A model generated the notes under the pieces. That model was not told the origin of the DNA. It saw only the letters and a list, made by a program, of their open reading frames with translations, and made no database searches. 64,000 bases of DNA from Planctomycetota bacterium (GTDB lineage: Bacteria > Planctomycetota > MHYJ01 > JACQXL01), in NCBI GenBank assembly GCA_016235865.1, contig JACRIK010000030.1:1-64000 (forward strand), given 5' to 3'. Below, piece by piece: positions 6,001 through 58,473 of this stretch; positions within the stretch are counted from its first letter, which is position 1, and each line of letters starts with the position of its first letter. Both the position numbers and the translations under genes were made by a program.

Positions 6001-9000
6001 ATGGGCTGATAATTCCAGTAACGAGACCGGATTTGAGGTCTGGCGCTCGATGAACGGCGTGACTTACACCTTGGTGGCCACGCTGGCTCGTAATACCACT
6101 TCTTATACTGATAACGGGCTACTGATGTCAACCGCCTATGCCTACCAGATTCGGGTTTATAACGGTATGGGCACCAGTAATTATTCCGGTTCGGTTAGTC
6201 AAATAACAGGATCTTTCTACCCGGTATATATAACCTTTAACAATACCTCAACCGGCCAAAATGGCACCATACAAACGAGTACTATAACGCAGACCGGAGT
6301 TTACCGGATAGAGGCTTGGGGTGCCCAAGGCGGTAGTGGAACCTCATATACAGGAGGTCTGGGTGCAAGAATGATGGGAGATTTTACTATAACTGCCGGG
6401 ACACAGCTAAAAATCTTAGTCGGACAACAAGGATTAAATCAGGCCACCTATAAATCAGGTGGCGGTGGCGGTGGAACGTTTGTCACTGATAACAGCAATA
6501 ACCCGCTAATCATTGCTGGTGGTGGTGGTGGTGGTGGTGGAAACTCTAACCCCCAAAATGGACAGCCTGGATTGACAGGAACCTCTGGCGGCAATGGTTC
6601 TCAGGGGGTAGCTACTGGTGGAACAGGCGGTGGCGGCGGTGGTGCTTCCGGTGGCGGTGGCGGCGGTGGTGGACTTACCGGGAATGGTACTGCTGGTTGG
6701 ACACCCGGGGGGATGAGTTTTATAAATGGCGGTACAGCTGGTGGCTTGAACGGTGGATATGGCGCTCAAGGTGGCTTTGGTGGAGGATCTAGTGGTGAGT
6801 GGAATAATCAAGGTGCAACAGGAGCAGGGGGAGGATATTCTGGAGGTGCAGGCACAGGTTCAAATGGTGTAGCAGGTGGTGGTGGTTCTTACAACGCCGG
6901 AACAAACCAATCTAATTCTAGTGGCGCGAGAACCGGACAAGGGCTGGTGACTATTCAGGGTATTTCTGGCGCGTCAGAAAATTTAAATATTACCACCAAC
7001 CTGATGGCCACGGTGGTCTCCGATACCGTTGTTGCCCTGACCTGGCAGGATAACTCGCCGGGTGAAAACGGGTTTAGAATTGAACGCTCATTGGACGGGG
7101 TTGACTGGACCGTGACTTATACCCTGGCCGCCAACACCACGGCCTATACTGATACGGCTGTTTCAGCCGGCACGACTTATTATTACCGCGTCCGGTCTTA
7201 TAACTTCCTTACAGAACATCCCAATTCCAACATTGAGCAGACCAGGACTTCACTGCCCAGCGCGCCGAGCGGTCTGGTAACCGCCACGGTTTATTCGTCT
7301 TACATCATGTTGCAATGGGCAGACAATTCCAATAACGAAACCGGGTTTGAATTGGAACGCTCTGTTAATGGTATTACCTATACCCTGCTGGCCACGCTCA
7401 TGCGCAACACCACGGTTTATACCGATACCGGGCTGGTTAGTGGCACGCCTTACGCCTACCGGATCCGGGCCTATAACGCTATCAGCGCTAGCGGTTATTC
7501 CAATATACTCAACGTAACTACCCTGGGATTTGCCGCCTTCGGTGGGACCATCACATTCAGCGGCGGCTATACCATTCATACTTTCACGGTCTCCGGGACA
7601 TTCACGGCGAATAGCAATAGGAATGTTGATGTCCTGGTGGTGGCCGGCGGCGGCAGCGGCGGAAATCATAATACCACCAATGCCAACGGTGGCGGCGGCG
7701 GCGGCGGCGTTATCTACAATACTTCTTATTCCGTAACGTCCGGGGCTATTGCGGTGACGGTCGGCAATGGCGGCGCGGCTATTACAAATGTTACTACCAG
7801 CGTGGGTTACAACGGACAAAACTCTGTCTTCGGGTCGCTGGTTGCCCTGGGCGGCGGTGGTGGTGGTTCGACCGGCTCCGCGAATGTGGCGGGCAGCGGC
7901 GGCAGCGGCGGCGACAAGGCCAATAACGGCGGCGCGGCCGGGGTCTCTGTTCAAGTGGGCGGCTATGGTAATTCCGGTGGTGCCAGCGCTATCGCCTGGA
8001 CCGGCGCAGGCGGCGGCGGCGCCGGCTCAGCCGGATTTATCGGCAGTAGCTCTGTAGTAACCGGTGGCAATGGCGGAACCGGGATATCCAGCACCATATC
8101 GGGTTCGCTGAAATATTACGGTGGTGGCGGCGGCGGCGGCGCCAACAGCACCGAGCGGGCCGGTGACGGCTATGACGGCGGCGGCCGCGGCTGCGGAAAC
8201 ACCACTTATTACGCCTACAATTATTACCCTGACGAGGTTAATTCCACGACCAGGGGCAGCGGCACTCCCAACGCCGTGGCCAACACCGGCGGCGGCGGCG
8301 GCGCTGGTTCCTATTGGTCAGGTAGTGGCGGCGGCAATAACTATTGGACTACCGGTTCCGGAGCCGGAGGCTCAGGTATTGTCATCATACGCTATTTGAC
8401 CAACGATATCCAGGTTAATGCTACCACCAACCTGCGGGCCACGGTGGTCTCCGATACCATTGTTGCCCTGACCTGGCAGGATAATTCGCCGGGTGAAGAG
8501 GGCTTCAGGTTGGAGCGCTCCGAGGACGGGAATAACTGGACTGTGACTTATACGCTGGGTGCCAATACCATGGCCTATACCGATACGGCTGTTTCAGCCG
8601 GCACGACTTATTATTACCGGGTCAGGTCTTATAACTTTATAGGGGATAACGCAAATTCCAATACTGAGGTAACCAGGACTTCGTTGCCCAATGCGCCGAG
8701 CAGCCTGGTAACTACCACGATTTATGCCACGGCTATCGTTTTGCAATGGGCCGATAATTCCAATAATGAAACTGGCTTTGAGGTCTGGCGCTCTACGGAC
8801 GGCGTGACCTACACCCTGGTTGCCACGCTGGACCGTAATACCACCTCGTATACCGACAGCGGCTTGGCTATGGCTACCTCCTATGCTTATCAGGTTAGGG
8901 CCTATAACGGCATCGGAACCAGCAGCTATTCCAATGTGTGTATTGCGACTACTTATGCAATAGAAGCAACGGGCGGTACAACATCTGTTAGTAATTATAC

Positions 9001-12000
9001 CACTCATATTTTTACTTCAGGCGGGACATTTACAGTTACAGCAGGTAGCGGGAATGTTGAAGTCCTGGTGGTTGGTGGTGGCGGCGGAGGTGGAACACAA
9101 CATGGCGGCGGTGGCGGTGCGGGTGGATTGATTTATAACCCGTCTTTTGCTGTGGTCGTTGGTTCATATCCTATAACTGTGGGTGCCGGAGGCGCTGGTG
9201 CTCCAGCTGGAGGAAACGGAGATAGACCACGTGGAACTAATGGCTCTGATTCAGTATTCAGCACATTAACCGCAATAGGGGGCGGTGGGGGCGGTTCTTA
9301 TAGGACCGGCGCGGCATTAAGTGGTAATGATGGCGGCTCAGGTGGCGGCGGTGGTTCAGGAGGAAGTAGCGGAGCCGGCGGAGCTACGACACAAACAGGT
9401 GGATTTGGAAGCGCTGGCGGTTCTGATACGCTAAATGTAGCCCCTTGGAGGGGCGGCGGTGGCGGTGGAGCTGGAGCAGCCGGCGCTACCGGTATGACGA
9501 CCGGTAATGGCGGAGCAGGAAAAGAATATTCTATTTCCGGCGTTAGCACCTATTATGCGGGCGGCGGCGGTGCCGGCAGCAATACTGGAACTGGCGGCGC
9601 AGGCGGTCTTGGCGGCGGCGGGGCTGGCTCATCAAATGGAGCATCAGGCCCCGATGGAACTGCGGGAACTCCTAACACCGGCGGCGGTGGCGGCGCCGGC
9701 GGGGCATATAATTATGCCGGCGGCGCTGGCGGCTCGGGCATCGTTATCATCCGTTATCTTCCTTCAAGTGGTATTGTTGCCACCGGTGGGACAATCATAC
9801 CTGCTGGCACAAAAACTCATATCTTTACTTCAAGCGGCACATTGGCTGTTACCGGCGGCGGTAATGTTGAGGTCTATGCCTGGGGTGGCGGAGGGGCCGG
9901 TGGCAATGTCGGCGGATGGGGTTATGGAGCTGCGGGCGGTGCCGGCGGGGCTGCCCAGGGAACCTTGAATGTAGTTTCCGGCACATATAATGTTGTCGTG
10001 GGCGGTGGCGGAGTGATTAACAGTTATGTCGGCGCCGCGGGCGGCGGCGGTCCGGGTTCAAATAATAATGTTGATAACCAGTACGCTGGCGGCGGCGGCG
10101 GCTATTCCGGAATATTTGCATCATCTGTTTCCCAGGCTAATGCCCGTATTATTGCGGGCGGCGGCGGCGGCGGCGGCAGCAGCCGGGCCGGCACGGGAAA
10201 TGCCGGTGGCGCGGGTGGCGGCGCATCAGGCGAAAGAGGATTTTCACCTTACGACAGCAAGACCTCATATGGCGGTAACCCTGGTACCCAGGCGGGTCCG
10301 GGCGCCGATGCCAGCTGCGATAGCGCCCAGGCCATTGGCGGGCAATGGGCCCTGCAGGGCGGCGTGGTTAGGATTAATAGTGCGGGCGGTGGCGGCGGCG
10401 GCGGCTATTGGGGCGGTTCTGCCGGCGGTTACAGCGAATCCAATACCATGGCCGGCGGCGGCGGCGGTTCTGGATATCTGCATCCAACCCTGATATCCGG
10501 CGGCGTGTTGACAGCCGGAACTGGTATAACACCGGGTGATTACGCCAATGCTTACCGAGGCACGGCCGGTACTGCCGGCGTAGTAGCCGGCAATGGCAAT
10601 AATGGCGTAGTCATAGTCAGGTATTTACAAAGCGGCAATAATATTACCGGCAACCTCGCGGCCCAGGCGCTTTCCAACACCACGATTGCCCTGACCTGGC
10701 AGGATAATTCGCCGGGTGAAAACGGGTTCAAGATTGAACGTTCGCCGGAAGGCATTACTTGGACGCAAATAGTCACTGTGACGGCCAATGCCACGGCCTA
10801 TACCGATACGGCTGTTTCAGCCGGTACGACTTATTATTATCGTATCTGTTCCTATGATTTGCTCGCAAACCATCCTTATTCCAACATTGAGCAGACCAGA
10901 ACTTCGTTACCCGCCGCGCCGAGCGGACTGGTAACCGCCACGGTTTATGCCTCAACCATCGGTTTGCAATGGGCGGATAATTCCAACAACGAAGACGGGT
11001 TTGAAATCGAGCGTTCTATTGAAGGCATCACCTACTCCCTGTACGCCACGGTTACGCGTAACACCACGGTCTATACCAATACCGGGCTGGTCAGCGGCAC
11101 GGCCTATGCCTACCGGGTCAGGTCCTATAACGATTTCGGCCCGAGCGGTTATTCCAATACGATTAACATAGTTACCTCTAATGTATTCTTGGCTACCGGT
11201 GGGACTATAACATATACCGGCGGCTATACCATCCATACCTTTACATCTTCCGGGACATTCACGCCGAACGGCAGCCAGAATGTCGAGGTCCTGGTGGTGG
11301 GCGGCGGCGGCAGCGGCGGAAACCACTCCACCACCAATGCCAACGGCGGCGGCGGCGGCGGCGGCGTCATCTCCAATAGCGCGTATTCAGTGGCTCCGGG
11401 CGCCATGGCGGTGACAGTCGGCAATGGCGGCTCGGCCATTCCTGTTGTTGCTGCTGTGGGCAACAACGGGGGGAATTCGGTCTTTGGTTCGTTGGTGGCT
11501 CTGGGCGGCGGCGGCGGCGGTTCGACCGGGTTGGTCGCGATTGCGGCTAGAAGCGGCGGCAGCGGTGGCGGTAAGGCCAATGGCGGCGGCGCGGCCGGGT
11601 CTTCTATTCAGGCGGGCGGCTATGGTAATTCCGGCGGTGCCAGTGCCGTAGCCTGGACCGGCGCGGGCGGCGGCGGAGCCGGCTCAGCCGGGTTTGCCGG
11701 AAACACCGGCGCAACCGGCGGTAATGGCGGGACTGGGATATCCAGTACCATATCGGGTTCGCTCAGATATTACGGCGGCGGCGGCGGCGGCGGTGGCAAC
11801 AGTAGTGAGCGCGCCGGTGATGGCTTTGACGGCGGCGGACGCGGCTGCGGCCAAACCTCTTACTACGTCTATAATTCTTACCCGGTCGAGGTCAATGCCA
11901 CGACCCGGGGCAGCAGCACTCCCAATGCCATTACCAATACCGGCGGCGGTGGCGGCGGTGGTTCATACTGGGCGCCCAACGGCGGCTGGACTACCGGCTC

Positions 12001-15000
12001 AGGCGCCGGCGGCTCCGGCATCGTCATCGTCCGTTATTTAACCAATAATCAGGTAAATATTTCCGGCAACCTCCAGGCCACGGTTATTTCTGACACTGAA
12101 ATTACCCTGACCTGGCAGGATAACTCGCCCAGCGACCAGGGATTTAGACTGGAGCGCTCCGAAGACGGGAGTAACTGGACCGTGACTTATACTTTGGCCG
12201 CCAACACCACGTTCTATACTGATACGGCGGTTTCAGCCGGCACGACTTATTATTACCGGGTCCGGTCTTATAACTTTATAGAGGATAACCCCAATTCCAA
12301 CATTGAGCAGACCAGGACTTCCCTGCCCAATGATCCGAGCGGCCTAATAACCGCCACGCTTTATTCCTCTGCCATCGTCTTGCAATGGGCGGATAATTCC
12401 AATAATGAAAATGGTTTTGAAATAGAACGCTCCACGGACGGAATTACTTACTCCCTATGCGCCACGGTCACGCGCAATACTCAGGTCTATACCAATACCG
12501 GGTTGGTCAGCGGCACGGCCTATGCATACCGGATTAGGGCCTATAACGCGGTCGGCGTGAGCGGTTATTCTAATATAGCCAGTGCAACTACCCTGGGGTT
12601 CTCGGCCACCGGCGGCACAATATCTTATGGTAATTATACCACTCATGTCTTTACTGCCAGCGGGGCATTTACCGTTACCGCAGGCAGCGGGAATGTTGAA
12701 GTCCTGGTGGTGGCCGGCGGCGGTGGTGGTGGTTGGCATCACGGCGGCGGCGGCGGCGGCGGTGGTGTCGTTTACGATACTGCTCTTGCTGTAGGTGCTG
12801 GTTCTTATCCTATAGTTATAGGAGCGGGCGGAACTTCCCCCGGTCCCGATGATACTTATGGGAATAATGGCGGTGATTCTACAGCATTTGGGTTACTTGC
12901 TTCTGGTGGCGGTGGTGGAGGTTACTACAGCAATAACGCTGGGAAGGCTGGCGGCTCTGGTGGCGGTGGTGGTGGTTATAACGGAACAGCCGGTTCATCA
13001 GACCAATCTTCTCGTATGGCTTCAAGTGGTACACGAACAGTTTATGGAAATGCTGGAGGTAATAGAACCGGTTCCGGGAGCAATACCAACGGTAACGGTG
13101 GTGGAGCAGGTGGCGCATCAAGCAGTAGTCAGGGTGGTCCTGGTATCTACATAAGTGCGTTTTCGTCATTTGGTTCAAACGGTTATTTCGGAGGTGGCGG
13201 CGGAGGCGGCAACGATGGTGTCGGAAATAGCGGTATGCACGGAGGTGGAAATGGTGGAAATGGTGGTGGTGGCGCCGGCACAGCAGCCACTGCAAATACC
13301 GGTTCCGGCGGCGGCGGCGGCGGCGGCAGTTCTGGAGACGGTCGTCCAGGCGGTTCCGGTATCGTCATCATTCGTTATCTGGCTTCAAGCGGTATTGTTG
13401 CCACCGGCGGGACAATTATACCTCCATCTGGCACAACAACGCATATTTTTACAACCTCCGGAACATTCACGCCGAACGGCAGCCAGAATGTCGAGGTTTT
13501 GGTGGTAGGCGGCGGCGGCAGCGGCGGAAACCATAGCACCACCAATGCCAACGGCGGCGGCGGCGGCGGCGGTGTCATCTCTAATAGCGCGTATTCAGTG
13601 GCTCCGGGCGCCATGGCGGTCACAGTCGGCAATGGCGGCGCGGCTATTACAAATGCCACTATGAGCGTGGGTTACAACGGAGAAAATTCGGTCTTTGGGT
13701 CGCTGGTTGCCCTGGGTGGCGGCGGCGGTGGTTCCACCGGTTCCGCGAGTCCGGCCGGTAGCGGCGGCAGTGGTGGCGGTAAGGCCAATGGCGGCGGAGC
13801 AGGCGGGACTTCTACCCAAACAGGCGGTTATGGTAATTCCGGCGGCAATGATTCTCAAAACTATACCGGTGCAGGCGGTGGCGGCGCCGGCTCGGCCGGG
13901 GTTGGTGGCAGCGGCGGTACAGCACCGGCTGGCAATGGTGGGGCCGGGATAGCCAGTACCATATCGGGTTCGCTCAGATATTACGGCGGCGGCGGCGGCG
14001 GCGGCGCCAACAGCAGCGAGCGCGCCGGGGATGGCTTTGACGGCGGCGGACGCGGTTGCGGAACTACTTCTTACTATGGTAACACTTCTTACCCGGTCGA
14101 GGTCAATGCCACGACCCGGGGCAGCAGCACTCCTAATGGTATTGCCAATACCGGCGGCGGCGGCGGCGGCGGTTCCTACTGGGCGCCCAACGGCGGCTGG
14201 CTCAACGGCTCGGGCGCCGGTGGCTCAGGCATCGTCATCATACGTTATAATGACACCCAAACAAATATTGCCTCCAACCTGCAGGCCACGGTTATTTCTG
14301 ATACGGAAATCGCCCTGACCTGGCAGGATAATTCGCCCAGCGACCAGGGATTTAGACTGGAGCGCTCTTTAGACGGGAATGACTGGACCGTGACTTATAC
14401 TTTGGCCGCCAACACCACGTCCTATACTGATACGGCGGTTTCCGCCGGCACGACCTATTATTACCGGGTCCGGTCTTATAACTTTATCGAGGATAATCCC
14501 AATTCCAACATTGAGCAGACCCGGACTTCCCTGCCAAATGATCCGAGCGGCCTGATAACCGCCACGGTTTATGCCTATTCCATCGTCTTGCAATGGGCGG
14601 ATAATTCCAATAACGAAACCGGGTTTGAATTGGAGCGCTCCACTGACGGCATCACCTACTCCCTGTGCGCCACGATTACGCGCAATACTCAGGTCTATAC
14701 CAATACCGGGCTGGTCAGCGGCACGGCCTATGCCTACCGGATCCGGGCCTATAACGCTCTCGGTCCGAGCGGTTATTCCAATATCGCCAGCGCAGTTACC
14801 TTTGGATTCTCCGCCATCGGAGGCACAAAATCTGATGGTAATTACACCACTCATATCTTTACTTCCAGCGGGGCATTTACCGTTACCGCAGGCAGTGGGA
14901 ATGTTGAAGTCCTGGTGGTGGCCGGCGGCGGCGGCGGCGGCAAAGCAGAACCTAATCCAAGCGGCGATGGCGGCGGTGGCGGCGGCGCCGGCGGTTTGAT

Positions 15001-17821
15001 TTATAATTCGTCTTATGCTGTGGCTGTTGGTTCATATCCGATAACTGTCGGTGGCGGTGGTAGTGGTTCCACTGCGAATGCCAGCCGGGGTGGAAACGGC
15101 TCTGATAGTGTTTTTGGTACGCTTGCCGCGGTCGGCGGCGGCGGCGGCGGGTCGGATAATGATGATGCCACCGGCGTAAATAGAGGGGCAGATGGCGGCT
15201 CTGGCGGTGGCGCGGCAAACAGATATAATGTCAGTACCGCTGCGAGTTCGGGAACCTCCGGACAGGGGAATGCCGGAGGTGATGCTACATCAAATACAAC
15301 TTCATGGCGCGGTGGTAGCGGCGGCGGCGGCGCCGGTGCGGTAGGAGTAACACGATCAAGCAACGTAGGCGGCGCGGGTGGCAACGGTTTGTTAAGCAGT
15401 ATTAGCGGTTTCCCCGTTACTTATGCCGGCGGCGGCGGCGGCGGAACGTGTAATAGTAGCGGTGGCCAGGGCGGTTCAGGCGGCGGCGGAGCCGGCGGCG
15501 GAGTTAATACTGCCGGGATATCCGGAACTGCCAACACCGGCGGCGGCGGCGGCGGCGGTGGTTCGGGCAGCGGTGGCGCCGGTAACGGCGGAGCCGGCGG
15601 TTCAGGCATCGTTATCATTCGGTATCTGGCTTCAAGCGGTATTGTGGCCACCGGAGGGACAATTATACCTCCTGGCACAACCATGCATACCTTTACCACT
15701 GCCGGGACATTTACGGTGGAAGGCACTGGAAGCGTTGAGGTCTATGCCTGGGGCGGCGGCGGTGCCGGCGGCACGGTCGGCGGCTGGAACTATGGCGCTC
15801 CGGGCGGGGCCGGCGGCGCGGCCCGGGGAACCTTGAGTATAAATTCCGGTACATATAATGTTGTGGTAGGCGGCGGTGGGGTGGTTAATAGCGTAGTCGG
15901 CGCGGCCGGCGGCGGCGGCCCGGGCAGAACTCCTACTGACAGTGATGGTAATAAATATGCCAGTGGCGGCGGCGGCTATTCCGGGATGTTTATGTCATCT
16001 GTTTCCCAGGCTAATGCTCTTATCATTGCCGGCGGCGGCGGCGGCGGCGGCAGCAGCCGGGCCGGCACCGGTAATGCCGGCGGCGGCGGCGGCGGCTCGG
16101 TGGGTCAGGTGGGATATTCTCCTTACGATAGCAAGCCCCAATACGGCGGTAATCCCGGTACCCAGACCGCGGCCGGAGCCGATGCCAGTTGTGACTCTGC
16201 TAATTATCCCGGCGGACAGGGCGCCCTGCAGGGCGGCGTGGTTAGGATTAATAGTTATGGCGGCGGCGGCGGCGGCGGCTACTGGGGCGGCTCAGCCGGC
16301 GGGTATAGCGAATCCAACACCATGGCCGGCGGCGGCGGCGGCTCGGGATATCTGAATACCACCCTGATATCCGGCGGCGTATTAACGGCCGGCACCGGCA
16401 TCACGCCGGGCGATTACGCCAATGCTTATCGGGGTACGGCCGGAAATGCCGGCGCGGTGGCTGCCAATGGCAGTTCCGGCACCGTAATAATCAGGTATAC
16501 AAACACTTCAGCCACTGCAAATGCTACCAGCAACTTACGGCTGGCGGTGGTTTCTGAGACCGCCATTACACTGACTTGGCAGGATAACTCGCCGGGTGAA
16601 AACGGGTTCAAGATTGAACGTTCGCCGGAAGGCATTACCTGGACCCAAATCGTTACCGTAACGGCCAATACCACGGCCTATACCGATACGACCGTTTCAG
16701 CCGCCACGACTTATTATTACCGGGTCCGGTCTTATAACTTCCTGGAAGATAATCCTTATTCCAATATTGCGTCAACCCTGACTACGTTGCCCGACGCGCC
16801 GAGTGCCCTGACCGCCACCACGGTTTCCGCCCTTTATATGCGCTTGCAATGGGCGGATAACTCCAATAACGAGACCGGCTTCAGGATAGAGCGCCAGACC
16901 ATTCCGACCGATAGCGGATTTTCATTGATTGCCACAGTATCCCAGAGCGCCACTGCATATACCGATACCGGTTTAGCCATGGGCACCAGCTATAATTATC
17001 AGGTTTACGCCTATAACGGCATCAGCCCGAGCGGTTATTCCAATGTGCTCAGCGCCACTACCCTGACGGCCGAGAATCTAAGTCTGACCTTTACCAACAC
17101 CTCAACCGGCCAAAACGGGAGTATCCAGACACTGACCATAACATACAGCGGCACTTACCGCATAGAGGTCTGGGGCGCCCAGGGCGGCATAGCCGGTAAT
17201 ACTGGAGGTTTGGGTGCCAGGATGCGTGGAGACTTTTATCTGAACGCGGGTGATGTGCTTAGCATTGCTGTTGGACAACAAGGTGTTAATGGTGCTTCAG
17301 CAGGGGGAGGCGGTGGTTCATTCGTGGTTAGAAGTGGCGTGCCGCTGATAATCGCCGGCGGCGGTGGCGGCGGCGGTCAAACTGGTGCCGGGATGGATGC
17401 CGTTACCGGGACCTCGGGTACCTACGATAGACCAAATGTTAACCCGGGCGGGTCAGGTGGTAATGGCGGTTCGGCTTCTGGTTCTTGGGGAGGCAGTGGC
17501 GGAGCTGGATTTTCTAGTAACGGAACTACCGGGGCAAATAGTTGTACCGGTGGGCTTAATTGGGCTAATGGATTAACCGGCGGGGCGCAGGGTAGTAGCT
17601 ATGGCGCTGCTGGCGGATATGGTGGTGGCGGCGGTGCTACCTGGCCGGCTGGCGGCGGCGGCGGCTATTCCGGCGGCGGCGGTGCCTGGTCTAATGGCTC
17701 TGGTTCTGACAGGGGCGGCGGCGGTGGTGGTGGGTCTTACAACGCGGGTACTAACCAATCCAATTCCGATGGCGTTCGGACCGGACAGGGCCTGATGACT
17801 ATTATCAGCCTTGATTTTTAG
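2..17821 (+). CDS. Giant modular surface protein, 5' end outside window (Big_1-like, DUF2341/LamG, FN3, glycine-rich modules)
   Basis: The frame is open from base 2 and the first residues already match the internal Ig-like repeat, so the real start lies upstream; over 5930 residues are visible. Order by nucleotide: invasin/Big_1-like Ig repeats (2-1030), an FN3-like domain (1040-1340), DUF2341 split around two LamG jellyrolls (1348-2990), a further beta-rich domain (3000-3540), an FN3 pair (3580-4120), DUF2341 split around one LamG (4129-5040), then FN3 pairs (5670, 6985, 8410, 10640, 12050, 14260, 16510) alternating with ten glycine-rich modules. The first and last glycine-rich modules (6220-6960, 17080-17818) resemble the ALK/LTK glycine-rich fold, with GxYRIExWGAQGG and VGQQG. 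The others start with a HxFTxSGTF-type strand and end in SGIVIIRY. No transmembrane anchor or sorting signal is visible at the C terminus. Inferred role: secreted or cell-surface adhesin or matrix protein; ligand unknown. The domain pattern is seen directly; family names come from recall. Confidence 0.9.
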   Translation, partial: STNSSGIATFSNLSITTTGTAYQLQARSGAAGPVSSGSFNITAGAPGNLVFFQQPTNTAAGATISEVDVSVRDAYGNPVGFGVPVSLTTTAQLNGTTTKNTNTSGIAIFDNLSITASGIYQLQARSGAIGPVGSSSFSITAIAPNNLAFVQPPTTTVSGALFAPVITVRIRDIYGNTVTTASNPVSITVSAGSAFSGTTTGVAASSGIATFNNVGITGAGTLRTMTATAAALTIATSGTFDVLSYGAADNLAFVQQPITNGIGAIITPPVTVIVRDAYANPVPAVSVSVTTTTGALMNGTLITQSNVSGIATFNDLSIPAEGSGYVLSATALSGAISATSAAFDIGTAPVITITGATTVTGTSAVLNATVNSTGLSTIAYFEWDITNTSYTYSTTAQAIGSGLSDVIVTATLTSLNPGVTYYFRAGATNMAGTTTSPAISFTALGVLLSNDGGGNWPYYRPMTITNNSGATLTDYQVMVEPFRDSGDFIGNNITNTGLACSLPLSEGTGGTTADASGNNNTGTLVNSPTWTQGRFGNALQFNGSTTRVTTADSSSLDFGTGDFTIEGWVNYSSFGGVMRLVAAGSDADGASNEWFFGNWVSPYRLNFACRNAAGNGYYEGGSNNITVSAGNWYHIAVVRSGTAVTYYFNGNNVGGFTIPVSNHPINGGSTGALIGARYQTNASTIIEYTNGLIDEIKIHKRALSAEEISMRYGSGLVGSWHFSEPLTDTSITTTDLSGSSNNGTLVNSPTRVAGRFGNALSFDGTDDRVDVSDTDNLSFTNGMFTTEFWFKAPTQIGSGDTRNYLVAKGATSNYEYGVNIDRITGLVQFETWTSAGAGAGYITSSIRYDDDTWHYLVATRDGNGTSSNRVRLYIDGQEIGSGVLVTNSMSNTTSGIRFGNRSDLTASFYRGLIDEARIYNRVLSAAEITARYNAGTPKVKHDLADIRFASSDGSQEYSYWQETDSRFWVKEPSISASVTTGIRMYYGNISATSSSSGTNTFALFDDFEGSGLLAWTNNAGTWLNEGGYRKQKSTSAVYYKASYVSTNLTDYIVHAKMYINSATLGSGRQGLTIERDGTSTWFAGVIYEFSLSQSAILEEGAAWRNTGAIGFTPVVYTWYDLDMLRQNNIQKVSICKAGTQLSWQASDTRPLKPTTIAGLWGGFDTEVWYDDFFVRKYSAIAPIHSVPGVENGVFAPTNLSAVVVSESQVNLTWQDNSDNEFAFKVDRSFDGVTYGMLANIGVNITSCTDSTVTPTGTYYYKVASYKDLSSYLYSNTVSVTISAPVSPSNLITTTGGTSPITLQWSDNSSNETGFYLERSLDGVNWAVTITVPANITSYADASVSISTTYYYRIRSFNGIGISDPSGVISNTVNGLSNSGGGIWQYLRPITVTNTGSNLIDYQVVVSPFMDSSFINNAGLVGSWHFSEVVTATTTADMSGYYNTGTLTNGAVITSSGRFGNGCSFNGTNRYVNCGSRTVSIPFTFEAWVNPSTWPTSVGIVEVSNGASVRVGLDSQGVAGRLSIWYQGSAGNYVSYMTDAPATGSWTHIIGVISGTGSSDGMLYYNGVPQTMTFTSAGTPAASVSATCFIGAIDTVPNYPFDGIIDEARIYNRALSDTEIATRYNSGIPKVNGDYADIRFTDAAMTRELPYWQESDNKFWLKMPSLLSGTTQLKMFYGNVSATSSSSITNTFVFGDDFTGATIDVAKWVEYDTGSWLNQNNRLVSTGGSSTWGNPSVYSIGNFNRTDSLSLEFDYKWTGSAYSNFFGWKDATTGRDYTDMPYGFYSNASQADDVYEDGTNRGDVGQNWTSGQAYKIRMRLKTSSGCIYERSTDSGLSWVTWYDSVYSSESLLKVALISGGPSGALFDSDNWRIRKYSAIEPVLAVNSEVQVNTPSNLTATVVSGNQIDLNWQDNSVGELGFKVERSFDGSAWTQIGTVIGNVTIYSDTTITPNNYYYYQVRSYDANGDSPYSNIETIWSSLPSQPDTLITTTVTAGSITLQWADNSSNETGFEVWRSMNGVTYTLVATLARNTTSYTDNGLLMSTAYAYQIRVYNGMGTSNYSGSVSQITGSFYPVYITFNNTSTGQNGTIQTSTITQTGVYRIEAWGAQGGSGTSYTGGLGARMMGDFTITAGTQLKILVGQQGLNQATYKSGGGGGGTFVTDNSNNPLIIAGGGGGGGGNSNPQNGQPGLTGTSGGNGSQGVATGGTGGGGGGASGGGGGGGGLTGNGTAGWTPGGMSFINGGTAGGLNGGYGAQGGFGGGSSGEWNNQGATGAGGGYSGGAGTGSNGVAGGGGSYNAGTNQSNSSGARTGQGLVTIQGISGASENLNITTNLMATVVSDTVVALTWQDNSPGENGFRIERSLDGVDWTVTYTLAANTTAYTDTAVSAGTTYYYRVRSYNFLTEHPNSNIEQTRTSLPSAPSGLVTATVYSSYIMLQWADNSNNETGFELERSVNGITYTLLATLMRNTTVYTDTGLVSGTPYAYRIRAYNAISASGYSNILNVTTLGFAAFGGTITFSGGYTIHTFTVSGTFTANSNRNVDVLVVAGGGSGGNHNTTNANGGGGGGGVIYNTSYSVTSGAIAVTVGNGGAAITNVTTSVGYNGQNSVFGSLVALGGGGGGSTGSANVAGSGGSGGDKANNGGAAGVSVQVGGYGNSGGASAIAWTGAGGGGAGSAGFIGSSSVVTGGNGGTGISSTISGSLKYYGGGGGGGANSTERAGDGYDGGGRGCGNTTYYAYNYYPDEVNSTTRGSGTPNAVANTGGGGGAGSYWSGSGGGNNYWTTGSGAGGSGIVIIRYLTNDIQVNATTNLRATVVSDTIVALTWQDNSPGEEGFRLERSEDGNNWTVTYTLGANTMAYTDTAVSAGTTYYYRVRSYNFIGDNANSNTEVTRTSLPNAPSSLVTTTIYATAIVLQWADNSNNETGFEVWRSTDGVTYTLVATLDRNTTSYTDSGLAMATSYAYQVRAYNGIGTSSYSNVCIATTYAIEATGGTTSVSNYTTHIFTSGGTFTVTAGSGNVEVLVVGGGGGGGTQHGGGGGAGGLIYNPSFAVVVGSYPITVGAGGAGAPAGGNGDRPRGTNGSDSVFSTLTAIGGGGGGSYRTGAALSGNDGGSGGGGGSGGSSGAGGATTQTGGFGSAGGSDTLNVAPWRGGGGGGAGAAGATGMTTGNGGAGKEYSISGVSTYYAGGGGAGSNTGTGGAGGLGGGGAGSSNGASGPDGTAGTPNTGGGGGAGGAYNYAGGAGGSGIVIIRYLPSSGIVATGGTIIPAGTKTHIFTSSGTLAVTGGGNVEVYAWGGGGAGGNVGGWGYGAAGGAGGAAQGTLNVVSGTYNVVVGGGGVINSYVGAAGGGGPGSNNNVDNQYAGGGGGYSGIFASSVSQANARIIAGGGGGGGSSRAGTGNAGGAGGGASGERGFSPYDSKTSYGGNPGTQAGPGADASCDSAQAIGGQWALQGGVVRINSAGGGGGGGYWGGSAGGYSESNTMAGGGGGSGYLHPTLISGGVLTAGTGITPGDYANAYRGTAGTAGVVAGNGNNGVVIVRYLQSGNNITGNLAAQALSNTTIALTWQDNSPGENGFKIERSPEGITWTQIVTVTANATAYTDTAVSAGTTYYYRICSYDLLANHPYSNIEQTRTSLPAAPSGLVTATVYASTIGLQWADNSNNEDGFEIERSIEGITYSLYATVTRNTTVYTNTGLVSGTAYAYRVRSYNDFGPSGYSNTINIVTSNVFLATGGTITYTGGYTIHTFTSSGTFTPNGSQNVEVLVVGGGGSGGNHSTTNANGGGGGGGVISNSAYSVAPGAMAVTVGNGGSAIPVVAAVGNNGGNSVFGSLVALGGGGGGSTGLVAIAARSGGSGGGKANGGGAAGSSIQAGGYGNSGGASAVAWTGAGGGGAGSAGFAGNTGATGGNGGTGISSTISGSLRYYGGGGGGGGNSSERAGDGFDGGGRGCGQTSYYVYNSYPVEVNATTRGSSTPNAITNTGGGGGGGSYWAPNGGWTTGSGAGGSGIVIVRYLTNNQVNISGNLQATVISDTEITLTWQDNSPSDQGFRLERSEDGSNWTVTYTLAANTTFYTDTAVSAGTTYYYRVRSYNFIEDNPNSNIEQTRTSLPNDPSGLITATLYSSAIVLQWADNSNNENGFEIERSTDGITYSLCATVTRNTQVYTNTGLVSGTAYAYRIRAYNAVGVSGYSNIASATTLGFSATGGTISYGNYTTHVFTASGAFTVTAGSGNVEVLVVAGGGGGGWHHGGGGGGGGVVYDTALAVGAGSYPIVIGAGGTSPGPDDTYGNNGGDSTAFGLLASGGGGGGYYSNNAGKAGGSGGGGGGYNGTAGSSDQSSRMASSGTRTVYGNAGGNRTGSGSNTNGNGGGAGGASSSSQGGPGIYISAFSSFGSNGYFGGGGGGGNDGVGNSGMHGGGNGGNGGGGAGTAATANTGSGGGGGGGSSGDGRPGGSGIVIIRYLASSGIVATGGTIIPPSGTTTHIFTTSGTFTPNGSQNVEVLVVGGGGSGGNHSTTNANGGGGGGGVISNSAYSVAPGAMAVTVGNGGAAITNATMSVGYNGENSVFGSLVALGGGGGGSTGSASPAGSGGSGGGKANGGGAGGTSTQTGGYGNSGGNDSQNYTGAGGGGAGSAGVGGSGGTAPAGNGGAGIASTISGSLRYYGGGGGGGANSSERAGDGFDGGGRGCGTTSYYGNTSYPVEVNATTRGSSTPNGIANTGGGGGGGSYWAPNGGWLNGSGAGGSGIVIIRYNDTQTNIASNLQATVISDTEIALTWQDNSPSDQGFRLERSLDGNDWTVTYTLAANTTSYTDTAVSAGTTYYYRVRSYNFIEDNPNSNIEQTRTSLPNDPSGLITATVYAYSIVLQWADNSNNETGFELERSTDGITYSLCATITRNTQVYTNTGLVSGTAYAYRIRAYNALGPSGYSNIASAVTFGFSAIGGTKSDGNYTTHIFTSSGAFTVTAGSGNVEVLVVAGGGGGGKAEPNPSGDGGGGGGAGGLIYNSSYAVAVGSYPITVGGGGSGSTANASRGGNGSDSVFGTLAAVGGGGGGSDNDDATGVNRGADGGSGGGAANRYNVSTAASSGTSGQGNAGGDATSNTTSWRGGSGGGGAGAVGVTRSSNVGGAGGNGLLSSISGFPVTYAGGGGGGTCNSSGGQGGSGGGGAGGGVNTAGISGTANTGGGGGGGGSGSGGAGNGGAGGSGIVIIRYLASSGIVATGGTIIPPGTTMHTFTTAGTFTVEGTGSVEVYAWGGGGAGGTVGGWNYGAPGGAGGAARGTLSINSGTYNVVVGGGGVVNSVVGAAGGGGPGRTPTDSDGNKYASGGGGYSGMFMSSVSQANALIIAGGGGGGGSSRAGTGNAGGGGGGSVGQVGYSPYDSKPQYGGNPGTQTAAGADASCDSANYPGGQGALQGGVVRINSYGGGGGGGYWGGSAGGYSESNTMAGGGGGSGYLNTTLISGGVLTAGTGITPGDYANAYRGTAGNAGAVAANGSSGTVIIRYTNTSATANATSNLRLAVVSETAITLTWQDNSPGENGFKIERSPEGITWTQIVTVTANTTAYTDTTVSAATTYYYRVRSYNFLEDNPYSNIASTLTTLPDAPSALTATTVSALYMRLQWADNSNNETGFRIERQTIPTDSGFSLIATVSQSATAYTDTGLAMGTSYNYQVYAYNGISPSGYSNVLSATTLTAENLSLTFTNTSTGQNGSIQTLTITYSGTYRIEVWGAQGGIAGNTGGLGARMRGDFYLNAGDVLSIAVGQQGVNGASAGGGGGSFVVRSGVPLIIAGGGGGGGQTGAGMDAVTGTSGTYDRPNVNPGGSGGNGGSASGSWGGSGGAGFSSNGTTGANSCTGGLNWANGLTGGAQGSSYGAAGGYGGGGGATWPAGGGGGYSGGGGAWSNGSGSDRGGGGGGGSYNAGTNQSNSDGVRTGQGLMTIISLDF
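9775..10625 (+). repeat. Second glycine-rich module type, copy 1
   Basis: This module starts with IVATGGTIIP-type residues and contains the VEVYAWGGGGAGG core. It is closely repeated at 15640-16495. Each copy directly follows another glycine-rich module without an FN3 pair between them, so the two types form a composite block. Confidence 0.8.
11230..12040 (+). repeat. Glycine-rich module, copy 1 of a near-identical pair
   Basis: Internal coding repeat of the giant gene. It is nearly identical at the DNA level to 13440-14250, including synonymous positions (for example around 11265-11420 versus 13475-13630). This implies recent duplication or gene conversion rather than ancient divergence. 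A more diverged relative lies at 7540-8400. Confidence 0.85.
13440..14250 (+). repeat. Glycine-rich module, copy 2 of a near-identical pair
   Basis: Partner of 11230-12040. The two copies differ mainly in a central segment (13650-13940) and in short glycine tracts. Confidence 0.85.
15640..16495 (+). repeat. Second glycine-rich module type, copy 2
   Basis: Close DNA and protein repeat of 9775-10625, sharing VEVYAWGGGGAGG, YGGNPGTQ, ADASCDSA and the ITPGDYANAYRGTAG segment. The two Cys-containing patches suggest a conserved fold rather than mere low complexity. Confidence 0.8.
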
Positions 17822-17844
17822 AGCCGGCGTAATGGTATTATCTT

Positions 17845-18168
17845 ATGAAGGAATTACAGATTAAAGTTCAGAACAACAACGACGGCAGCGCGAACATCTC
17901 TATTCATGGCATGGTAGACGCCTATTCTTACGGCCAGTTGGAGCAGGCATTCAATAACCTGATTAATCAGGGTATTTATAATTTTGTGGTGGACCTGTCA
18001 AATGTGGATTATCTAAGCAGCGCCGGGGCCGGTATTTTTATCGGCACATTGGGCATAGTCCAGGAAAACAAGGGCAGTATTAAATTGGTTGACCCCAGGC
18101 CCAAGGTGCGCGAAACCTTTAACCTGCTCGGGCTGTCGCAATTCTTCGATATCACCGGCAATAAATAG
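17845..18168 (+). CDS. STAS-domain protein, anti-sigma factor antagonist type
   Basis: A 107-residue single STAS domain of normal SpoIIAA/RsbV length. The landmark is the VDYLSSAGAG turn (residues 54-63), which lines up with the phospho-acceptor loop of SpoIIAA (usually DSSGLG); Ser59 would be the phosphosite, and the usual Gly after it is Ala. Such proteins bind an anti-sigma kinase when unphosphorylated and free a sigma factor, but no partner kinase or phosphatase is in view. The ATG lies 24 bp after the stop of the giant surface-protein gene on the same strand, so the two may share a transcript. Family is clear; the specific pathway is unknown. Confidence 0.85.
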   Translation: MKELQIKVQNNNDGSANISIHGMVDAYSYGQLEQAFNNLINQGIYNFVVDLSNVDYLSSAGAGIFIGTLGIVQENKGSIKLVDPRPKVRETFNLLGLSQFFDITGNK

Positions 18169-21816: not shown

Positions 21817-22365
21817 ATGGAATTAGCTGAAATAATAAAGAATATAGCCGATATTCTGAAGACTCACGATTCAACAAATCCTAGAGACGAAGAAAAGAAT
21901 TTTAAACCCGGAATTGGTCCTTTAGAAGAAACTCAAATTGTCCAGGAAATAGCGAAGCGTCTTATGGAAAAGGGAGTTGCTTCACAAATACATCAAGCTC
22001 CTGATTTATCAATCAATGATGAATGGGCCATTGAATTCAAGTTGGCTAGACCATTTGGTGATAACGGAAAGGAGGCTGAACATTGGTCTAAAAAGATTTT
22101 GCATCCATATGAAGGTAACAAATCTTTGTTAGGCGACTGCTTGAAATTAATGAGAGAAAAATCTTATCCTAAAAAAGCAGTTATTGCGATCGGTTATGAA
22201 CATAATCCTGCAAAAATATCATTGGATCCTGCAATAAAAGCTGTAGAGGCGGTTGCGGCCGGTGTTTTAGACATTAAATTATCTGAACGAATAGAAGAAG
22301 TACGCGGCGATTTGGTCCATCCAGTGCATGAAGTTTTGAGGGTAATAGGGTGGGAAGTGAAATAA
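21817..22365 (+). CDS. Hypothetical protein with a PD-(D/E)XK nuclease-like motif
   Basis: I chose the ATG at 21817 (MELAEI..., 182 aa) over an in-frame TTG at 21811. I do not recognise a named family. Residues APDLSINDEWAIEFK fit the PD-x(n)-ExK metal-binding pattern of restriction-endonuclease-like folds (PD, then E-F-K), followed by LARPFGDNG and a mixed alpha/beta C-terminal half with KKAVIAIGYEH as a likely core strand. The N terminus is helical. Codon use is strikingly AT-rich compared with yifB/ygiQ, suggesting horizontal acquisition. It is a single gene between ygiQ and a dense palindrome/array region; no methylase or partner is visible. Function is not assigned; the nuclease-like fold is an inference from one motif. 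Confidence 0.6.
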   Translation: MELAEIIKNIADILKTHDSTNPRDEEKNFKPGIGPLEETQIVQEIAKRLMEKGVASQIHQAPDLSINDEWAIEFKLARPFGDNGKEAEHWSKKILHPYEGNKSLLGDCLKLMREKSYPKKAVIAIGYEHNPAKISLDPAIKAVEAVAAGVLDIKLSERIEEVRGDLVHPVHEVLRVIGWEVK

Positions 22366-22459
22366 CTGCTTAAAAGACATGTAAGACATATTCGGAATTA
22401 TACTTCATAACATGAATTACACCTTCCCTAACCCCTTGAAATACAAGGATTTACTTGGG

Positions 22460-22625
22460 AAATGTGCTACGTAGCACATTTTAGCCCCTCCGCTTTGTCC
22501 TATGGGCTAACTGGCTCTATTCCCGACAAAAACTGCCGGGATAAGAGCCGGTAATTCATTACATTCATAACCGGCTCTAATGTGTGACGTCACACATTTT
22601 TACCGGCTTTGTTGGACGTCCAACA
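22460..22625. repeat. Three perfect ACGT-centred palindromes plus nested hairpins
   Basis: Perfect palindromes sit at 22460-22481 (AAATGTGCTAC and complement), 22579-22598 (AATGTGTGAC and complement) and 22610-22625 (TGTTGGAC and complement). All follow ATGT-NNN-AC-GT-NNN-ACA(T) with a different but self-complementary NNN (GCT, GTG, TGG). Between them lie a GGCTCT...AGAGCC hairpin (about 22512-22553) and an AGAGCCGGT...ACCGGCTCT inverted repeat. No gene is seen in 22366-22680. Confidence 0.85.
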
Positions 22626-22682
22626 TTTGACCCTACCATCTTATCTATGTAACCATATCCCCTATGCAGGAGGTTGGGCTGG

Positions 22683-23078
22683 GGTATGAGAGGTGCTCAG
22701 CCGGGGTATGAGAGGTGCTGAGCTGGGGTATGAGAGGTGCTGAGCTGGGGTATGAGAGGTGCTCAGCCGGAGTATGAGAGGTGCTGAGCCAGGGTATGAG
22801 AGGTGCTGAGCTATGGTATGAGAGGTGCTGAGCTGTGGTATGCGAGGTGCTCAGCCAGGGTATGAGAGGTGCTGAGCCAGGGTATGTGAGGTGCTCAGCC
22901 AGGGTATGCGGGGTGCTGGGCTATGGTATGAGAGGTGCTGAGCCAGGGTATGCGAGGTGCTGAGCTGGGGTATGCGAGGTGCTGAGCTAGGGTATGAGAG
23001 GTGCTGGGCCAGGGTATGCGGGGTGCTGGACTAGGGTATGGGAGGTGCTGGGCTAGGGTATGCAGGAGGCCCCTATCC
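22683..23078. repeat. 22-bp tandem array A (about 17-18 units)
   Basis: Units start at 22683 and every 22 bp to 23057 with no insertion or deletion; consensus GGTATGAGAGGTGCTGAGCTGG. The last unit is diverged. Substitutions cluster at a few positions (GAG/GCG, CTGAGC/CTCAGC, AGCTGG/AGCCAG). Neighbouring units carrying GCTCAGC and GCTGAGC are complementary and can form hairpins. There are no unique spacers, so it is not a CRISPR array. The flanks 22673 and 23062 both carry TATGCAGGAGG. The rest of 22366-23263 shows no credible gene. Confidence 0.95.
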
Positions 23079-23263: not shown

Positions 23264-24181
23264 ATGCAAAAATATGACATTCCTGACTTGAGTTCCGAGG
23301 AAGGCCACCGGCTTTTTCATTACTTCCGTTGGCCCAAGGGCATCAGATGCCCCAGGTGCAACGTCCTGCAAAACAAGATTTACCGTGATAAGAAAACCAA
23401 TCGCACCAAATACTACTGCGAGAAGTGCCGGTTATGGTTCAATGATTTCGCCGGCACCATCCTGGAAGGCACGCGGCTGTCCCTGAGCCAGTGGTTCAAG
23501 GCCGTATATATGTTCCTGAAATCAAACGCCACGGCAGCCGGGGTGGCCAGCGAGCTTAAGGTTAACCGCAATACGGCCCAGGCGCTGCATAAGAAAATAA
23601 ACCGGGAAAAATTATGGTGCCAACTACTGCTTAACCGGTTTTGCGGCCGGACCAAGAATCGGGCGGTGGTCCAGTTTTCCCTTAAAGAGGTGGCTCATTA
23701 TCTTGATATGAGCCGGCGCAATCTTTATCGGCTGGTCAAGAAGGGGAGTATCAAGGCCGTCCGGTCTGGTGGCCAATGGCGCGTCTATCCGGAAGAGGTT
23801 CAGAAATACCTGGCGGCCAAACTCACGTATTACGGGATATCCGGCAGATGGGCGGTCCGGGAACACCATTTCTTCCGGCCCGAGGTGCTGGATAAATACC
23901 GTAAAGACCCGGTTGAGTATTACATAAACGAAGACGTTTATCAGGGCTGGGTGGGTTCCAACAAGGACCATCACTATGTCCAGAAACTATTGGAGATAGC
24001 CGGTCGGAAACGATGGCATGCGGTCGGCCGGATGATATATTATAATATCCATTATTTCAGGATGATTACGCCCGAAGGCCGGCCGGCCTTGGCCGTCAGC
24101 CACCGGGATTACCAGGAAATGCCGGACGAACAGTATGTGCATTGGTCGGGATTTATAATTTCCGAGGGACGTAAGGGGTAA
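23264..24181 (+). CDS. IS1595-type transposase zinc ribbon fused to an excisionase-like HTH; likely domesticated
   Basis: A 305-residue protein. The N terminus (about 1-115) looks like the IS1595 family N-terminal region: a zinc ribbon (CPRC ... YYCEKC) followed by FNDFAGTILEGTRLSLSQWFKAVY and an HTH-like ASELKVNRNTAQALHKKI. The DDE catalytic domain that should follow is absent. Instead residues about 138-185 form an excisionase/MerR-type HTH (FSLKEVAHYLDMSRRNLYRLVKKGSI...GGQWRVYPEEVQKYL), then an aromatic-rich C-terminal domain I do not recognise. It starts about 185 bp downstream of array A and ends 5 bp from the convergent 24187-25887 gene. Most likely a sequence-specific DNA-binding protein derived from a transposase; it cannot transpose alone. 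Target unknown; array A is a candidate by position only. Confidence 0.75.
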   Translation: MQKYDIPDLSSEEGHRLFHYFRWPKGIRCPRCNVLQNKIYRDKKTNRTKYYCEKCRLWFNDFAGTILEGTRLSLSQWFKAVYMFLKSNATAAGVASELKVNRNTAQALHKKINREKLWCQLLLNRFCGRTKNRAVVQFSLKEVAHYLDMSRRNLYRLVKKGSIKAVRSGGQWRVYPEEVQKYLAAKLTYYGISGRWAVREHHFFRPEVLDKYRKDPVEYYINEDVYQGWVGSNKDHHYVQKLLEIAGRKRWHAVGRMIYYNIHYFRMITPEGRPALAVSHRDYQEMPDEQYVHWSGFIISEGRKG

Positions 24182-40925: not shown

Positions 40926-41046
40926 TAAACGCTGATTATATCTTGTGCAACGATAGTAAATACGACGAGACCGCGGAGCGAACCCGAAGGGACCGGGAAG
41001 AACGAACCGGCAACGAATGCGAAGCAAATTGGTGGATAAGGTAATT

Positions 41047-41108
41047 AGAGCCAGTTAGGAGCACAGCGACTTATCCCTCTGACGGGATCCCGTTGAGGGA
41101 CTGGCTCT
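41047..41108. repeat. Nested hairpin repeat
   Basis: AGAGCCAGT (41047-41055) pairs with ACTGGCTCT (41100-41108). Inside is a TCCCTC/GAGGGA stem and the perfect 12-bp palindrome ACGGGATCCCGT (41082-41093). The outer arms resemble the AGAGCCGG inverted repeats near 22550. The rest of 40926-41181 holds only short dispersed repeats, and a strong AGGAGG ribosome site for the next gene. Confidence 0.75.
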
Positions 41109-41181
41109 TATCCTGTTAAGGATAAGGAAAGTGGTTAAGAAATAGCCACAGATTAACACTGATAATTAGGAGGTATTACCG

Positions 41182-42156
41182 ATGAAAACATATCGTTGCC
41201 CAACTTGCAAGAAACCTCTCACGAAAAATGAATTTGAGAGAGCTCTTGGTATACTTGACAAACGTGAGAAGTACTACAAAAACAAAGAAGCATCCTCACA
41301 AAAGAAGGTCCAAGACCTAAAAAATATGTGGAAAAAAGACAAACAGGCACAATCAAAGAAAATTAAAGACGCAGGGAAGTCAGGTGAGCGTAAAGGAATA
41401 CGGAAAGCGGGACGCATGGTGACCGGTTTAAAAACAGAAAATGAAAAACTACACAAACGAATTAGCCAACTTGAAAAAGGTAAAACACCTCAAACTGAAG
41501 GTTTAGAATTTGAGGAGAAACTTGCCGCTCGTTTAAGAAGAGAATTCCGCGAAGATGACATTCAGCACAAAGGTAAAGGTGGAGATGTTCTTCACATTGT
41601 AAAGTTCAACCAAGAACCTGTTGGTGTTATCATCTACGAGTGTAAGAGGGAGTCAAAAATAAAGCCTCAACATATTCGTCAAACATATCTTGCAAAACAG
41701 TCTCGTGAAGCGGAATTTGCCGTCTTAGTAACAACTGGTCAAAAGAAAGGTTTTAGTGGGCTCTCACAAATGGACGGAGTTTTGGTAGTTTCTCCTCTTG
41801 GCACCGTTCCTCTTGCTTCTCTGCTCCGGGGTTATCTTAAAGAAATGAATAAAGCAAAAATCCCTAAAGATAAGCGGACAATAATTGCACAGCAACTTAT
41901 GAAATACATAACAAGCCCACAGTTCAAGAATCCTATTGATGAAGTGGTGCAACTTTCTTCTGAACTTCAAGGCATGGTTATAGAGGAATATAAGGATCAT
42001 TGTCGTACGTGGAACAAACGATTGAATAATTATAAAACGATTGAATGGGATAGTTCACAGATTCGGAAGAATTTACAACTTGTTCAACACGGCAAGAAAC
42101 CAGAAGTAAGTATTCATCCGAAAGCTACCTTGTTACAATTGCCTGCTCCTTTATGA
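41182..42156 (+). CDS. Zinc-ribbon/coiled-coil protein with DUF2130-like PD-(D/E)XK nuclease domain
   Basis: A 324-residue protein with a strong AGGAGG site 8-9 bases before the ATG. The N terminus starts with CPTCKKPL (half of a zinc ribbon), then a Lys/Glu-rich coiled coil (about 25-105). Residues about 112-215 resemble DUF2130: EFEEKLAARLRREF, GGDVLHIVKF as the Asp strand, IIYECKRESK as the ExK strand, and EFAVLVTTGQ. This is the arrangement of restriction-endonuclease-like nucleases. The C-terminal 110 residues are helical. Codon use is AT-rich relative to neighbours, suggesting acquisition. It lies just upstream of array D, as the other PD-(D/E)XK-like gene lies upstream of array A. Target unknown. 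Confidence 0.65.
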   Translation: MKTYRCPTCKKPLTKNEFERALGILDKREKYYKNKEASSQKKVQDLKNMWKKDKQAQSKKIKDAGKSGERKGIRKAGRMVTGLKTENEKLHKRISQLEKGKTPQTEGLEFEEKLAARLRREFREDDIQHKGKGGDVLHIVKFNQEPVGVIIYECKRESKIKPQHIRQTYLAKQSREAEFAVLVTTGQKKGFSGLSQMDGVLVVSPLGTVPLASLLRGYLKEMNKAKIPKDKRTIIAQQLMKYITSPQFKNPIDEVVQLSSELQGMVIEEYKDHCRTWNKRLNNYKTIEWDSSQIRKNLQLVQHGKKPEVSIHPKATLLQLPAPL

Positions 42157-42164
42157 TGATGGAA

Positions 42165-42414
42165 TTCTGGGGGCGGTGAATGGTTCACTGACGTCTCCGA
42201 AAGGTTCGTACAGGGCGGGGAATGATTCACTGATGTCTCCAAACGGTTCGCTCAGGGCGGGGAATCATTCACTGATGTCTCCAAGCGGTTCGTAGAGGGC
42301 GGGGAATGGTTCACTGATGTCTCCGAACGGTTCGTAGAGGGCGGGGAATGGTTCACTGATGTCTCCGAACGGTTCGTAGAGGGCGGGGAATGGTTCACTG
42401 AAGGGGCTGAATGG
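42165..42414. repeat. 42-bp tandem array D (six units, each 2 x 21 bp)
   Basis: TTCACTGA recurs at 42184, 42226, 42268, 42310, 42352 and 42394, exactly 42 bp apart with no indels. The unit splits into two 21-mers that both begin GGTTC. The CGAAC-G-GTTCG junction is an 11-base palindrome. The array starts right after the stop of the 41182 gene; 42415-42560 contains only hairpins and a ribosome site. Confidence 0.9.
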
Positions 42415-55472: not shown

Positions 55473-55846
55473 GGTATCCCCCAGATATATAGGGGGTATA
55501 TCCCATATACTTGAGGGGTATATCCCATATACCTGGGGGGTATATCCTATATACCTGTATGGTATATCCCATATACCCGTGGGGTATATCCTATATACTT
55601 GAGGGGTATATCCCATATACTTGGGGGGTATATCCTATATACTTGGGGGGTATATCCCATATACCTGGGGGGTATATCCCATATACCTGAGGGGTATATC
55701 CCATATACCTGTGGGGTATATCCCATATACCTGGGGGGTATATCCCATATACTTAGGGGGTATATCCCATATACTTAGGGGGTATATCCCATATACTTAG
55801 GGGGTATATCCCATATACCTATGGGGTATATACCACCCTACGGGGT
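55473..55846. repeat. 22-bp tandem array B (16-17 units)
   Basis: Units start at 55495 and every 22 bp to 55825 without an indel, with a degenerate unit at 55473. Consensus GGTATATCCCATATACCTGGGG. Each unit is itself a hairpin: GGTATAT pairs with ATATACC around CCC. The common variant ATATACT keeps pairing through a G-U wobble in RNA. The remainder of 55289-55895 shows no gene. Confidence 0.95.
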
Positions 55847-58437: not shown

Positions 58438-58473
58438 GACAATCAGTGGCTATTCTTTTCTGGCCTCTAACAT

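Follow-up and report, generated by a model that had tools for sequence, protein, structure and literature searches.

A possible chromosome-organising site of parS-like palindromes and a 22-bp repeat array beside a nuclease-like gene in a planctomycete

The locus described here resembles the ParB/parS and Noc/NBS systems in one part and BldC and the excisionases in another. parS is among the most conserved bacterial DNA sites. R204 is named among the residues that contact parS and that ParB and Noc have in common as conserved positions (PMC7383237). The clamps of ParB-family CTPases load at 16-bp palindromes and then slide away from them. On plasmid RK2, clamps of the ParB-like protein KorB are stalled by KorA (PMC11790492). 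Along direct repeats, BldC protomers are arranged head-to-tail, each taking up one turn of the helix (PMC5859096); filaments are formed by RdfS and Xis (PMC11963761).

We analyzed a stretch of 64,000 nucleotides from a Planctomycetota bacterium (positions 1 to 64,000 of contig JACRIK010000030.1, assembly GCA_016235865.1), which is called the window in the following. With a probability of about 0.5, we read part of it as a composite chromosome-organising site, consisting of parS-like sites and an HTH_17-bound 22-bp array, which lies beside an unrelated imported nuclease gene. The genome (G000) has a size of 2.67 Mb in 38 contigs, and the assemblies of the related genomes are fragmented.

Features of the window

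The following features are considered.
21817..22365, + strand: PD-(D/E)XK-type nuclease-like gene, 182 aa, standing alone and judged to lie outside the module
22460..22481, no strand: parS-like palindrome 1, AAATGTGCTACGTAGCACATTT, perfect, with a 16-bp core at 22463-22478
22579..22598, no strand: parS-like palindrome 2, AATGTGTGACGTCACACATT, perfect, core at 22581-22596
22610..22625, no strand: parS-like palindrome 3, TGTTGGACGTCCAACA, perfect
22682..23062, + strand: array A, 17.3 copies of a unit of exactly 22 bp, GGGTATGAGAGGTGCTGAGCCA, without indels
23264..24181, + strand: gene of the array-associated protein, with an IS1595-type zinc ribbon, HTH_17 and a conserved C-terminal domain
41182..42156, + strand: second AT-rich nuclease-like gene, a weak match to Mrr_cat, regarded as a passenger outside the module
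42171..42401, + strand: array D, with a 42-bp period (2 x 21), belonging to a separate 21-bp class
55492..55835, no strand: further 22-bp array of the array A class, without palindromes and without an HTH_17 gene

A preliminary description had listed the first nuclease-like gene, the three perfect palindromes, array A and the zinc-ribbon/HTH gene, all of which are present, and had suggested that they might form a single module. The palindromes, array A and the zinc-ribbon/HTH gene indeed recur across genera, but the nuclease-like gene had to be excluded from this group. The window also contains, at 71-17821, an open reading frame of 5916 aa with repeated fibronectin-like and glycine-rich segments, which probably encodes a giant surface or secreted protein.

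Relationship of the palindromes to parS

The three palindromes of the window match the pattern TGTNNNACGTNNNACA, and sites of this pattern mostly have GACGTC as their centre. A search of the whole genome yielded 13 matches, 11 of them near-symmetric and two asymmetric, and the reversed pattern used as a control gave 0 matches. All 11 near-symmetric sites are located at four 22-bp arrays, whereas the two asymmetric ones lie elsewhere. The probability that all four site loci fall within 200 bp of an array is 3e-7 by position alone and about 7e-4 if the test is restricted to noncoding DNA, which was assumed to make up 15%. In a sister genus (G003), the five intergenic palindrome loci with visible flanks all adjoin an array, and a sixth, at the end of a contig, lies beside a ParB gene. 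Nine site-adjacent arrays from two genera were compared, and the motif CACCTC was common to five of them, with a polarity that was always the same. This motif suggests that a site and its array form a matched pair. A dispersed hairpin repeat (AGAGCCAGTTA...TAACTGGCTCT followed by TATCCCGACAGTTTTTGTCGGG) often adjoins parS-like sites and is also present elsewhere; copies were found at 41045-41120 of the window, at 10545-10600 of locus L061 and at 17795-17850 of locus L059.

Nineteen sites from three genera are 16-bp palindromes with TGT ends and an ACGT centre, in which positions 1-3 and 7-8 are invariant, partly because the search pattern demands these bases. The sixth base is G instead of C in 34 of the 38 half-sites, positions 4 and 5 are more variable than in canonical parS, and the canonical sequence TGTTTCACGTGAAACA does not occur in G000. 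As the canonical consensus is missing and the sixth base is G, the palindromes are described here as a putative parS-derived variant and not as canonical parS.

The strongest evidence for the parS identity of the palindromes is a positional homology within parB. In six relatives (G004, G012, G015, G016, G017, and G018) the parB gene itself contains canonical parS, which there codes for V-S-R-(G/E)-T. At the same codon and in the same frame, parB of G003, the one genome in which such an in-gene replacement was found, carries TGTTAGACGTCAAACA, coding for V-R-R-Q-T. Relative to the canonical site, G has replaced C as the sixth base and C has replaced G at the partner position; the central symmetry was thereby kept while the protein changed, and the resulting centre is that of the intergenic palindromes. 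The position of the G003 site and its compensated change indicate that the palindromes are probably switched parS.

Some palindrome loci also lie next to parB genes. One of the palindrome loci of G000 is situated 3′ of a ParB gene on contig C12, and one of those of G003 is situated 3′ of parAB. The C12 protein contains the domains ParB_N and HTH_ParB and is thus a ParB by domain content. In the clade of this ParB, the residue that aligns with the conserved R204 of the GHAR motif is K, M, I, or L (GHAR to GHAK/M/I/L), and R173 and G201 are kept. The protein does not qualify as Noc, since it scored 203.8 bits against a cut-off of 315 with the NCBIfam model nucleoid_noc and has R and G in place of the Noc specificity residues Q173 and R201. 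The ParB gene is duplicated in this order, with a parA-linked copy and solo copies (C3:441536-442297 and C12:110991-111875 in G000, C191 and C255 in G003, C29 and C51 in G007), and this duplication apparently represents a Noc-like arrangement of independent origin.

22-bp arrays and the HTH_17 protein family

The sequence of array A was found nowhere else in the genome, so that a direct sequence identity with other arrays is rejected. Arrays of the same period are nevertheless frequent: 36 with a period of exactly 22 were present in 1.11 Mb, a sample that was not fully random because some stretches had been picked for palindromes or HTH genes, and extrapolation to the whole genome gives ~85 arrays of period 22 and ~48 of period 21. 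When the first 0.89 Mb was scanned at lags of 10 to 41 bp, many arrays were obtained only at lag 21 (16 arrays) and lag 22 (25 arrays), with one at lag 20 and none at lag 23. This concentration at two lags shows that the periodicity is not due to chance. Masked runs of N appeared as 16 further "arrays" at each lag and were excluded from the counts. Contig breaks were observed inside or beside 22-bp arrays at the starts of C2 and C3 and the end of C33 of G000 and in several G003 contigs, and the array counts are therefore lower bounds.

The unit sequences are very unlike from one 22-bp array to another. Certain arrays at separate sites have units matching at 20-22 of 22 positions, and units this similar are shared, for example, by the array that follows parB and the one that precedes the three-HTH gene on C18. 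About 30 of the 36 sampled arrays lie apart from both HTH_17 genes and parS-like sites, which argues that arrays also act in trans or otherwise. In small samples from other families (100 kb of G139, 40 kb of G024, 34 kb of G008, and 25 kb of G006) no such arrays were found. The 21-bp class comprises 20 arrays in 1.11 Mb, for example, at 58469-58803 and 42171-42401 of the window; a part of them are coding repeats, and some abut a 22-bp array. A small paralogous gene family without a Pfam match, whose products have the sequence MSYK[AS]FKGKW..., has a 22-bp array just past each 3′ end (L024:374-793, minus strand; L066:3556-3942, plus strand; L075:11970-12458, plus strand) and is a second candidate for an array-linked family.

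The protein encoded at 23264-24181 belongs to an uncharacterised family. Pfam assigned Zn_ribbon_IS1595 and, at residues 139-185, HTH_17 with a score of 50.7 bits against a cut-off of 27, which assigns it to the HTH_17/excisionase fold; the conserved C-terminal domain covers about residues 205-302. Within the family this domain is combined with between one and three HTH_17 domains, or with a zinc ribbon and a single HTH_17. A single-sequence structure model had a mean pLDDT of 48.5, with low values outside the helical N-terminal half and the HTH regions, and the GC3 of the gene (0.65) is native. The NCBIfam model HTH_BldC gave 19 bits against a cut-off of 77 for a two-HTH paralog, which places it outside the BldC subfamily, and TIGR01764 (excise) was above its cut-off for this paralog. 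With the NCBIfam IS1595 model the score was 18 bits (cut-off, 75), only the zinc ribbon being above cut-off, and neither Pfam nor NCBIfam detected a transposase catalytic domain in the zinc-ribbon/HTH protein.

For each of the five family members in the own genome, a 22-bp array lies no more than about 1 kb upstream, lag 22 being the best fit, and two of these five arrays also have parS-like sites. The same holds true for six of the eight assessable members in G002, G003, G005, and G007, although two of these six arrays are weaker (lag-22 identity of 0.60 for G003:C134 and 0.57 for G005:C7); the exceptions are G005:C3, which has no array, and G003:C138, which has only a marginal one. Five more G003 genes were left out, as their contigs end 1-266 bp upstream. 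Compared with a background of 14 arrays within 1 kb upstream of 590 other genes (2.4%), which was taken from the own genome with simple ORF calls, the link had a Fisher P value of 1.9e-8 for the own genome and 1.7e-8 for the related genera. It was first noticed in the own genome, so that the related genomes serve as the independent test, and the test is not circular because the members were picked by protein similarity alone. Two HTH_17 genes lacking the C-terminal domain (C30:129435 and C2:96469) have no upstream array. Distant zinc-ribbon matches in G048, G139, G147, and G168 fall outside the family defined by the HTH and C-terminal domains and were left out. The order of gene and array is conserved across genera despite differing unit sequences, and the HTH_17 gene downstream of an array likely encodes its partner.

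Nuclease-like genes, competing explanations and known systems

The PD...ExK motif and the foreign composition that had been ascribed to the gene at 21817-22365 were borne out. Its GC content is 0.377, compared to 0.507 for the whole window, and its GC3 is 0.284, compared to 0.65-0.73 in three native genes of the window. E38, D63, E73, and K75 are invariant among five homologs down to 25% identity, so that the motif reading is sound at the sequence level. The protein had no match in Pfam, NCBIfam, or PADLOC and no sequence match in the PDB, and a structure model built from three sequences reached a mean pLDDT of 39.1, too low for the fold to be read from it. Zero homologs were present among 148 related genomes, and those found are few, namely, in a Vermiphilus MAG, an Armatimonadetes MAG, and two haloarchaeal plasmids. 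On the plasmids (L020:2598-4561 and L021:2616-4579) the homolog follows a GIY-YIG nuclease gene and overlaps its end, possibly forming a two-gene unit.

The proposal that nuclease and array act as one element draws on their position and on the conserved PD-(D/E)XK residues. A check for arrays at the homologs, which the preliminary description had itself named as able to refute the idea, turned out against it: TRF found none at the Vermiphilus and Armatimonadetes loci, and the two plasmid loci have none in their annotation, which was the only source used there. Conversely, the closest parallels to the locus, around the second zinc-ribbon/HTH gene of the own genome (on C26) and around that of G003 (on C48), have kept the array with no nuclease next to it. 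Together with the absence from relatives and the foreign composition, these results rule out the nuclease and array as a module, and we regard a joint element as very improbable. Judged by its composition and distribution, the gene is a foreign, recently acquired passenger, unrelated to the putative chromosome-organising site. The suggestion that the gene at 41182 and array D repeat the nuclease-then-array order did not hold up either, as 98 relatives contain zero homologs of this gene and array D, which has no palindromes alongside, is of the separate 21-bp class. Of the roles guessed at earlier, the chromosome-organising one is supported independently by the likeness of the palindromes to parS.

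In the composite-site model, the three palindromes would load a ParB-family protein that is specific to the lineage and has moved away from TGTTTCACGTGAAACA as its target. The 22-bp array, with two helical turns per unit, would be the binding platform of the downstream-encoded protein or its paralogs. With its one to three HTH_17 domains of the BldC/excisionase winged-helix type, this protein would coat the array head-to-tail in a fixed register, each unit accommodating two protomers or one two-HTH chain, and, bound to the array upstream, would autoregulate its expression. At parS-like sites with an adjoining array, the filament may stop or hold sliding ParB clamps in the manner of KorA and KorB. 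The data show the array class, the linkage of arrays with HTH genes and with palindromes, and the homology of one palindrome to parS; binding, filament, clamp stop, and cellular role we infer. The great differences between unit sequences are a difficulty for a single array reader, unless recognition is indirect or paralog specific. A more far-reaching version, in which the parS core switched along with a ParB paralog that had diverged, every switched site has an array as its partner, and phased filaments of a new family of multi-HTH_17 proteins control clamp spreading, is put forward tentatively.

The HTH_17 proteins might instead be ordinary autoregulators, the array being a multi-copy operator and the palindromes operators of another repressor, with no role in chromosome organisation. 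BldC and similar HTH_17 proteins are transcription factors (PMC5859096), and arrays precede the genes of this family, whereas the 590 other genes have 14 arrays upstream versus 44 downstream within 1 kb. We nevertheless consider this explanation rather unlikely, as about 30 of 36 arrays have no gene of the family alongside and the palindromes are associated with parB and with the place ancestrally held by parS. It is unlikely, too, that the arrays are selfish or slippage-born minisatellites expanding at gene ends, with a mobile-element-derived HTH_17 link and co-travelling palindromes. The many unrelated units would fit this origin, as would the sister arrays identical at 20-22 of 22 unit positions, the relation of the zinc ribbon to IS1595 transposases, the excisionase-like HTH, and the dispersed hairpins beside sites. 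However, the period does not stray from 21 or 22, neighbouring lags being empty or nearly so, the gene-array order is kept across genera though units differ, the composition of the HTH gene is native, and a transposase catalytic domain was not detected.

The composite-site reading suggests a lineage-specific chromosome-organising system that is apparently undescribed; in the literature searched, nothing relevant turned up on parS centred on GACGTC or on intergenic 22-bp arrays paired with an HTH protein. Arrays of such a kind are otherwise treated chiefly as minisatellites, and ~85 register-locked, unlike 22-bp arrays with a linked HTH_17 family provide a concrete protein candidate for an array reader. 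Iteron arrays of plasmid origins and direct-repeat centromeres likewise consist of tandem repeats whose unit spans about two turns of the helix, next to the gene of a cognate DNA-binding protein, but here dozens of unlike arrays occur per genome and no replication initiator was noticed adjoining them. With Mrr_cat proteins and lone PD-(D/E)XK nucleases the locus shares the catalytic motif in the 21817 protein and the Mrr_cat match of 41182; these two genes, however, have no link to arrays.

BldC and the excisionases Xis and RdfS have in common with the present family the HTH_17 fold, direct repeats with a period of whole helical turns, and an array upstream of the own gene. BldC, however, is a small single-domain protein, and its subfamily model scored far below cut-off here; the proteins described here have one to three HTH_17 per chain, a conserved C-terminal domain and, in some cases, a zinc ribbon at the N terminus, and their arrays reach about 19 units instead of a few. 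The KorB-KorA pair of RK2 resembles the proposed system in combining a ParB-like sliding clamp with an adjoining sequence-specific DNA-binding partner, here a putative staller, and differs in that the partner here is an HTH_17 protein, the setting is chromosomal, and the interaction is proposed.

The likeness to ParB/parS and Noc/NBS lies in the 16-bp palindrome TGT...ACGT...ACA, in sites beside parB, and, for parS, in the one site that occupies the ancestral parS codon within parB; an additional solo paralog relates to ParB here as Noc does. The differences are the centre, which is GACGTC (or TACGTA) and not CACGTG, the ParB clade without R204, and the adjoining 22-bp arrays, for which we found no description. 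If true, a natural switch of the parS core together with a lost ParB contact would add a second evolutionary experiment to that of Noc, and this switch can be tested by existing ParB assays.
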